DNA of 64,000 nt from Dyella dinghuensis (lineage in GTDB: Bacteria; Pseudomonadota; Gammaproteobacteria; Xanthomonadales; Rhodanobacteraceae). The translations under genes and the position numbers were made by a program. The notes beneath the pieces are model-generated. The model did no database searches. It was given only the letters and a program-made list of their open reading frames with translations, and was not told where the DNA came from. The stretch spans positions 311,214 to 375,213 of the forward strand of contig NZ_RYZR01000002.1 of the NCBI RefSeq assembly GCF_003977615.1, written 5' to 3'. This document shows, one piece after another, positions 12,781-14,702 of the stretch. Within the stretch, counting starts at the first letter, position 1. Each line of letters starts with the position of its first letter.

Positions 12781-14091
<1,311 letters not shown>

Positions 14092-14100
14092 GGTAGCGCA

Positions 14101-14368
14101 AGAGCCTGAGTAGGGTTTCGGCGTGGCCCGCGCCGAGATCTGTTTGCCTGGCGGGCAAGGAGGAACGAAGGCGTGTATGTCGATACACAACTGAGTGAGG
14201 ACGCAGCCCGGCGGGCAAACAGATCCGGCCCTTCGGGTTGCCACGGTGCGGCCGTCATGCGGCAGCGCGCGGCTTGGCTTGCCAGCCAGGCAAGCGCTGC
14301 GCCGCGCACCACCACCTGTCGGCCGCACCGTGGCAACGCGGGCTACGCCGAAACCCTACTCAGGCTCT
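14101..14368. repeat. Nested inverted-repeat element between eno and ftsB
   Basis: A 268-bp element bounded by 32-base terminal inverted repeats (14101-14132 and 14337-14368) that match at 31 positions; the one difference would be a G-U pair in RNA. Inside lie two further hairpins. Hairpin I has 12-bp arms at 14137-14148 and 14214-14225, and encloses a small stem GTGTAT-GTCG-ATACAC at 14173-14188. Hairpin II has perfect 18-bp arms at 14237-14254 and 14320-14337, and encloses stems at 14262-14268/14294-14300 and 14277-14283/14289-14295. No coding pattern is apparent. The right arm ends four bases before the ftsB start, so it would cover the ribosome site. I see no target-site duplication. It may be a miniature mobile element or a structured leader. 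Confidence 0.85.
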
Positions 14369-14372
14369 GATC

Positions 14373-14702
14373 ATGTTGCGTTGGGTCGCCTTGATCCTGC
14401 TGCTGATACTGATTGGACTGCAGCTGAAACTGTGGTCCAGTCACGGCGGCATGTCCGAGGTGGCCAGCTTGCGCGTTGCCGTGAAAAAGCAGAGCGACGA
14501 AAACGACAAGCTGGTCCAGCGCAATCAGGCACTCGCTGCCGACGTGAACGATCTCAAGCACGGTGAGCAGGCCGTCGAGGCGCGTGCGCGTGCGGAGCTG
14601 GGGTTGATCAAGCCGGGTGAGACCTTCTATCAGGTGGTCGAGAAACCCGCCAACGGTTCAAGCGCCGCTGCACCTGCGACTCCTGCAAGCAGCGGCAATT
14701 GA
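14373..14702 (+). CDS. ftsB: Cell division protein FtsB
   Basis: A 109-residue bitopic membrane protein of the divisome. A short N-terminus and one helix (about residues 4-20, WVALILLLILIGLQ) precede a periplasmic coiled coil around residues 30-75. The motif ARAELGLIKPGETFYQ is typical of FtsB, which forms a complex with FtsL and FtsQ. The frame is open well upstream through the inverted-repeat element, but homology begins at MLRWV. No clear Shine-Dalgarno site lies outside the repeat arm. The next gene is truD, not ispD. Confidence 0.93.
   Translation: MLRWVALILLLILIGLQLKLWSSHGGMSEVASLRVAVKKQSDENDKLVQRNQALAADVNDLKHGEQAVEARARAELGLIKPGETFYQVVEKPANGSSAAAPATPASSGN

Follow-up and report, generated by a model that had tools for sequence, protein, structure and literature searches.

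Several families of short bacterial repeats resemble the element described here in part, and are compared on the basis of the accessible portions of the cited sources. Correia/NEMIS elements of Neisseria are likewise short, end in inverted repeats (TA-terminated, 24 bp, in elements of 107 or 155 bp) and form cotranscribed folds, for which cleavage by RNase III has been reported (PMC10969869, PMC2229807). ERIC and YPAL/RU-2 elements of enterobacteria are palindromic and intergenic, can affect transcript stability and have open reading frames listed for them, and a ribosome site with a coupling frame goes unmentioned in those portions of their descriptions. BOX elements of Streptococcus pneumoniae are modular repeats with frames on both strands, some of which supply the stop codon of the preceding gene; their transcribed-strand frames, checked in that source, were without a good Shine-Dalgarno sequence, and translation was thought unclear (PMC3049150). 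Miniature inverted-repeat transposable elements (MITEs) derived from IS5-family elements are non-autonomous and multicopy. Among host genes, the small intergenic frame mgtQ precedes mgtB in Salmonella as an example of frames acting on a folded start, and its translation promotes that of the next gene (PMC8092293). Translational coupling is most efficient at a spacing of −4 to +3 according to a 2025 review (PMC12548453), in whose accessible text the words 'transposon' and 'insertion sequence' are absent, and unidirectional gene pairs are most often spaced −4 or −1 (PMC10666635). Searches of one open-access library found no paper linking miniature inverted-repeat transposable elements with Dyella, and nothing joining translational coupling, miniature inverted-repeat elements and operons.

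The window analysed here, a stretch of 64,000 nucleotides from the soil bacterium Dyella dinghuensis (contig NZ_RYZR01000002.1, positions 311,214 to 375,213), contains between the core genes eno and ftsB an element that is, judged by sequence comparison, one copy of a MITE family of Rhodanobacteraceae of about 266 bp. By the same comparison it is non-autonomous and of IS5 type, and like other MITEs derived from IS5-family elements it is multicopy; its interior differs from that of the IS5-family insertion sequences in being a two-hairpin body, not a deleted transposase gene. By the ends and sizes described for them, Correia/NEMIS, ERIC and BOX elements differ from it: at 266 bp, with TNA/CTAG targets, three stems and, in one subfamily, a leader frame, the family contrasts with Correia/NEMIS, and sizes, ends and target rules differ from those of ERIC and YPAL/RU-2. 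Unlike BOX elements, the copies of that subfamily (subfamily A) lie, between codirectional genes, in sense orientation only, with a strong ribosome site and a stop that meets the next start. With mgtQ-type frames and translational coupling generally (PMC8092293, PMC12548453, PMC10666635) the element shares a small frame that would promote the next gene; those frames are fixed host features, whereas the coupling frame of the MITE travels.

The element between eno and ftsB

The gene eno (12793..14091, plus strand; TIGR01060 match over the last 260 aa) is followed on the same strand by ftsB (14373..14702; NCBIfam PRK00888.1, score above cut-off), with a complete MITE copy of 266 bp, GAGCCTG...CAGGCTC, of subfamily A and sense to ftsB, at 14102..14367 between them. 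Terminal inverted repeats had been placed at 14101-14132 and 14337-14368 in the initial annotation, and were found there with 31 of 32 positions complementary (97%). The inverted-repeat structure is real; of the 268-bp extent proposed for it only the outermost bases had to be given up, as the comparison of copies set the ends at 14102 and 14367 (left arm 14102..14132, right arm 14337..14367, plus strand) and assigned 14101 and 14368 to the target flanks. The two enclosed hairpins with perfect outer arms of 12 bp (GATCTGTTTGCC/GGCAAACAGATC) and, in the second, 18 bp (GTTGCCACGGTGCGGCCG/CGGCCGCACCGTGGCAAC) were both located in the letters as had been described. Hairpin 1 (14137..14225, plus strand), delimited by inverted repeats, fold and copies, has a conserved asymmetric apical loop with a Shine-Dalgarno sequence. 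Hairpin 2 (14234..14340, plus strand) is given at the extent of the inverted repeat found, so that it shares a few outermost bases with the right terminal arm; its stem is hypervariable among copies, with pairing retained. The predicted fold had −208 kcal/mol at z = −15.2, and none of 200 shuffles was equally stable. A search of the element against Rfam gave four matches, all under the gathering scores and three of them to microRNA families, and a simple consensus scan of 13901-14700 found neither a sigma-70 promoter nor an intrinsic terminator.

At the eno-ftsB junction the element was absent in 15 of 15 same-genus relatives, where the genes are 4-20 nt apart, and it was also absent behind eno in the stretch read from 14 more distant genomes. 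The exact insertion place in one relative (G008) reads GGTAGCGC-TTA-TCC-ATG, i.e. a TNA target. Of the 15 same-genus relatives, 13 have a GAGGT motif in the gap that separates the two genes; in the window it stands at 14090..14094 (plus strand) and is parted from the ftsB ATG by the insertion. The element is not a conserved ftsB leader, and the proposal of a leader that sets FtsB levels is unsupported as far as a conserved device is meant, with none of the 15 same-genus junctions holding it.

Copies, partner insertion sequence and target sites

The window's own genome has five full-length copies, and matches were obtained in 27 of the 60 relatives searched, two of these 27 lying outside the host's taxonomic family with weak single hits near the threshold; copy numbers in relatives are lower bounds, because at most 12 first-look candidates were scored per genome. 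An exact-pattern genome scan matched 115 DNA stretches, and the 80 matches listed with taxa came from Dyella, Rhodanobacter, Fulvimonas, other Rhodanobacteraceae and one 'Proteobacteria' MAG. In total 228 loci were scanned, giving 203 distinct copies with both ends, of which 166 (260-270 bp) were aligned (95 in a first pass); copies without recognisable ends were left out (14 of 140 in the flank comparison). Subfamily A was defined as the 28 copies, from genus genomes, whose identity to the window copy is 82% or more; the smallest tree node with all of them contains 29 copies. Five short forms, L105, L112, L310 and L322 (158 bp each) and L103 (159 bp), have lost hairpin 2; other near-perfect palindromes replace it in L055, L098, L063 and L050, and a small hairpin of the CCCCTGCTTTCGCAGGGG type is nested in its tip in L073, L082 and L102. 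Three family copies (L255, L257 and L306) lie within about 9 kb of genome G003 (C1, 1618058-1627225), two of them being subfamily A copies at nuoK-nuoL and nuoL-nuoM of the nuo operon.

The family is short, multicopy, bounded by terminal inverted repeats and without a transposase gene, and its ends are common to autonomous-type elements. They match those of L189, a degraded insertion sequence of 855 bp in G013 with flanks TAA/TTA, and of eight insertion-sequence copies in G031, where TNA stands on both sides in 8 of 8 copies and is identical in 6 of 8; these IS5-family (DUF4096 + DDE) insertion sequences of Rhodanobacteraceae share the ends GA(G/A)CCTGTT...AACAGGCTC and the TNA-type flanks with the MITE. 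The G031 transposase, which matches the IS5 family, has DUF4096 and DDE_Tnp_1 across two frames; four further genomes yielded pieces only of this insertion sequence. No MITE copy was found in G031 even though the insertion sequence is there. In the window's genome there was no match to PF01609, PF13340 or the G031-type insertion sequence, so the copies there are probably stranded now. In the small genome G003 PF01609 matched 41 times, with near-equal scores for more than 20 of the matches, which is an insertion-sequence expansion.

The base left of the element is A in 113 of 125 copies and the base right of it T in 119 of 126. Among the 203 copies the flanks were identical TNA in 41, TA/TA (mostly CTA/TAG) in 41, differing TNA in 19 and neither in 102. 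The TA/TA class predominates in genomes with near-identical copies (G007 10/12, G006 7/12, G015 10/11), which points to recent movement. Target-site duplication is seen at the level of the family; the window copy is flanked by CAA on the left (14099..14101), which is not TNA, unlike the family consensus, and by TGA on the right (14368..14370), which is TNA, without an exact duplication. Empty sites were also found elsewhere: nuoI-nuoJ lacks the element in 14 of 15 genus genomes read, and leuS-lptE in 15 of 16. The earlier suggestion of a miniature mobile element was thus supported by multiple copies, defined ends, target-type flanks, empty sites in relatives and an insertion sequence whose ends match. 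A search of this genome and its relatives, comparing copies for covariation, had been proposed for deciding between mobility and a regulatory RNA at one conserved site; it returned a multicopy element with family-level target duplications, and compensatory changes that are not at one conserved ftsB site. Likewise, of the observations named beforehand as speaking against the proposed reading, a single copy with unconserved stems did not materialise (five full-length copies, stems paired among copies), while conservation at ftsB was indeed lacking.

Gene contexts rest on a rough script that uses codon usage; in subfamily A, NCBIfam supported them by naming the genes on either side at 16 of the 20 junctions checked, several of these matches being partial or below cut-off. 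Gene calls were available for 184 copies, and codirectional genes flank 136 of these. A stop codon faces 174 element ends, at a distance of −2 to +1 nt in 76 and of no more than 20 nt in 126; since TAA, TGA and CTAG are natural TNA/TA targets, the element tends to land exactly on stop codons. The named subfamily A junctions are eno-ftsB, fliP-fliQ, flgK-flgL, nuoI-nuoJ, leuS-lptE, bolA-murA, parA-parB, sdhA-sdhB, nuoK-nuoL, nuoL-nuoM, RND adaptor-permease, flgI-flgB, uppS-cdsA, glnS-deaminase, flgF-flgG and rapZ-PTS IIA. While one fliP-fliQ junction holds the element, 4 of 11 related junctions in relatives hold other inserts (L389, L392, L393, L399), at least three of them with hairpin-forming repeats; the fliP-fliQ-like genes compared there are about 72-76% identical, so that orthology is uncertain and another export system may be involved.

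Leader frame and orientation of subfamily A

The initial annotation had stated that no gene is carried, which proved too strong. A Shine-Dalgarno sequence, AAGGAGG (14157..14163, plus strand), is followed 9 nt downstream by a GTG that opens a frame of 65 codons (14173..14370, plus strand), and its stop is the TGA of the right target flank (14368-14370), 2 nt ahead of the ftsB ATG at 14373. At sequence level the attributes of a coupled leader, i.e. a ribosome site, a start and an open frame that ends near the next start, are therefore all present. In subfamily A the motif GGAGG occurs in 28 of 28 copies, and most other copies have AAGGAAG. Of the 28 subfamily A copies 27 have the leader frame open, vs 11 of 131 others, and the remaining forward frames of subfamily A are open in 0/28 and 1/28; the frame-preserving length (a multiple of three) is kept in 27/28 vs 85/131. 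In a rough neutral simulation, with the substitutions of each copy shuffled over the consensus, 16.5 of 26 open frames were expected and 26 observed, with a P of about 4 × 10−6 that is optimistic because a star tree and independent changes were assumed.

The predicted leader peptide is, from these comparisons, not clearly conserved at the protein level. Its pN/pS was 0.71 in frame vs 0.68-1.18 in the other frames, and in four orthologous pairs pN exceeded pS in two and fell below it in two; Pfam gave no match and NCBIfam a single one (E 0.017), far under the cut-off. Weak amino-acid constraint is what would be expected if being translated counts for more than the product. At one orthologous site L003 and L023 differ at 27 positions of the frame, and both are open with TAG one base before the ATG. 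Exceptions within the subfamily are L002 (frame broken), L021 (exit at 66 nt), L014 (convergent) and L003 (left neighbour divergent).

Orientation was counted with orthologous sites merged. Subfamily A loci were sense in 22 cases, antisense in 0, divergent in 1 and convergent in 1, and no antisense locus appeared at identity cut-offs from 0.80 to 0.88; the other copies were sense in 35, antisense in 44, divergent in 24 and convergent in 17. Of 26 copies that face a gene start, 21 have the leader stop no more than 18 nt from the element end, compared with 4/26 and 3/26 for the other frames. Eleven exits fall at +3, where the targets themselves are stop codons, and do not count as 11 independent facts; with these target-supplied cases removed, in-phase exit stops remained in 10 of 15 subfamily A copies vs 4 of 34 others (Fisher p 2 × 10−4). 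The spacing from stop to ATG was −4 to +3 in 14 of 28 copies (−4, ATGA, in eight; −1 in one; 0 to +3 in five); 11 lay outside this range and three had none. Outside the best coupling range are five copies spaced +9 to +13, four spaced −10 to −13 and L250/L251, an orthologous pair, at about +19. Some sites retain an AGGA/GGAG-like motif in the stretch from the element to the ATG and may therefore do without coupling.

The reading that we regard as probable is that the window element is a MITE carrying a translated leader that couples to the downstream gene. Ribosomes would load at the AAGGAGG, which the loop of hairpin 1 exposes, translate outward via hairpin 2 and the right terminal arm, thereby opening the 31-pair terminal duplex, stop at the TGA 14368-14370 and re-initiate at the ftsB ATG 2 nt further on. 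The element would thus stand in for the native spacer, whose GAGGT it has displaced from the ATG, and the cost to the operon would be lowered; antisense or frame-broken subfamily A insertions in such operons would be polar and hence lost. The proposed locking of the ftsB start by the right arm would then apply to naked RNA only, since with a ribosome site in the loop and a frame through the right arm, translation would open the terminal duplex.

The strongest alternative, which we consider unlikely, is an ordinary MITE whose frame is untranslated, with the open frame and the sense orientation explained by a founder effect and by selection against polar antisense insertions. Subfamily A copies are at least 83.5% identical to the window copy, so that a frame open in the ancestor could have lasted; there is little constraint on the peptide, many of the +3 exits are explained by stop-codon targets, and the complementary frame of other copies is often open in any orientation, so that openness alone proves little. 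Against this stands the ratio of 35 sense to 44 antisense among other copies between codirectional genes, by which antisense insertion as such is tolerated. A founder effect is also at odds with the fixed GGAGG of subfamily A, with its frame-preserving length and with the excess of in-phase exits beyond +3, and L023, 20% diverged from the window copy, has still kept the frame.

For the other copies a leader on the complementary strand was considered. That frame is open in 46 of 50 antisense, 26 of 35 sense, 22 of 24 divergent and 14 of 17 convergent copies, and a ribosome-like motif with start and open frame occurs in 30/50 antisense vs 15/35 sense; as the frame is mostly open but not tied to orientation overall, such a leader was not adopted and is kept as a lead only. 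Clusters 15 and 19, chosen post hoc and with orthologous copies unmerged, have 26 antisense to 7 sense copies in codirectional contexts (p 0.001), opposite to subfamily A, and cluster 9 has 9:11; older lineages of the family may, by the first of these counts, do likewise on the opposite strand.

Pairing and covariation of the arms

In the first-pass set of 95 copies the pair cells comprised 8554 Watson-Crick, 185 G.T, 183 A.C and 96 other combinations, and hypervariable stem positions showed 54% identity between copies with 95% Watson-Crick pairing within a copy. On the tree of 166 copies, 710 double Watson-Crick changes were counted vs 155 changes to G.T and 203 to A.C. By part, changes to G.T and to A.C numbered 57 v 71 in the terminal arms, 66 v 35 in hairpin 1, which leans to G.T, and 32 v 97 in hairpin 2, which leans to A.C. 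Because the two hairpins lean oppositely, the set is not explained by any single RNA strand; arm copying gives no explanation for these leanings either. Eleven orthologous full-length pairs (nine sites) had 51 double Watson-Crick differences and, as single differences, 25 A.C, 19 G.T and 14 other; L017/L254 have three adjacent compensated pairs. At orthologous sites the tip of hairpin 1 (alignment columns 56-112) diverged by 4.5%, the tip of hairpin 2 by 9.0% and the flanks by 16.7%, so that the tip of hairpin 1 may be under constraint. An insert of about 20 nt is present in both arms of L051, L080 and L104 and in one arm only of L096. In subfamily A the column pairs 27/255, 51/119 and 102/109 are G.T in 22-25 of 28 copies, and are fixed mismatches uncorrected by arm copying.

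These counts bear on the view that the element is a cis-regulatory RNA leader of ftsB, with its pairing under RNA selection, its right arm hiding the start and RNase III cutting the duplex, which we judge very improbable. Its fold is very stable and its stems covary, RNase III cleaves transcribed Correia elements at the terminal repeats according to the accessible text of PMC10969869, and raw cells on the transcribed strand of codirectional copies show 111 G.U v 82 A.C. The corresponding tree events were only 114 v 104, the events within sense-only subfamily A 28 v 36, and A.C likewise exceeded G.T over all copies, in the terminal arms and at orthologous sites; a cis-regulatory RNA would favour G.U above A.C mismatches on its transcribed strand, and no such preference was found. 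The empty site in 15 of 15 same-genus relatives largely refutes a conserved regulator; RNase III processing as such may still occur. RNA-level selection for pairing was accordingly rejected on the mismatch spectrum, the raw-cell excess being noted. The initial annotation had seen in the single arm difference weak evidence for such selection: the difference was correctly read as G-U compatible, but it is not tied to ftsB, G.T standing there in 60 of 95 full-length copies, and a family trait of this kind is silent on selection at ftsB. Without a consistent G.T excess over A.C mismatches the argument itself falls.

Copying between arms at the DNA level fits the alignments better than RNA selection. 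The stems covary, orthologous sites included, the arms change in blocks, and there is no consistent G.T/A.C strand preference; together the last two favour arm copying. Judged from these copies, the pairing pattern is the footprint of template switching between the arms, which in DNA replication would be the main process upholding arm pairing in the long term, in place of RNA-level selection. Template switching has been described as a mechanism for RNA hairpins by Monttinen and Loytynoja, where, in the portion accessible, G-U is involved in 78.5% of two-step compensations (PMC8794818).

Least probable of all is a structure-bridged ribosome site, in which the closed stem puts the displaced GAGGT beside the ftsB ATG and the native signal still works: in the window GAGGT closely precedes the element and the ATG comes 5 nt past its end, and in L306/L307 CAGGA/GGAGGA precedes the element, with the ATG 4 nt past its end, but a Shine-Dalgarno-like motif occurs in the 20 nt before the element in only 13 of 57 start-adjacent codirectional copies, about chance by a rough estimate and with some doubtful start calls in that list, so that bridging is unsupported as a general rule.

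If the coupled-leader reading is true, a transposable element has solved the polarity problem of operon insertion with a coupling device that it brings along. This would account for the presence of a 266-base palindrome within nuoI-nuoJ, sdhA-sdhB or leuS-lptE without the downstream gene being cut off, and the copies would form a natural set of portable coupling modules. The wider proposition, of a class of mobile elements that is translationally transparent in core operons through one-way landing on stop codons and a coupling-restoring ribosome site with leader, we hold to be evenly balanced between true and false. As a by-product of it, the family would be a natural record of palindrome template-switch repair without RNA selection. 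Since double Watson-Crick changes dominate and the mismatch intermediates have no RNA-strand preference, the family also carries a warning that strong covariation, usually taken to prove a functional RNA, can come from DNA-level copying from arm to arm.
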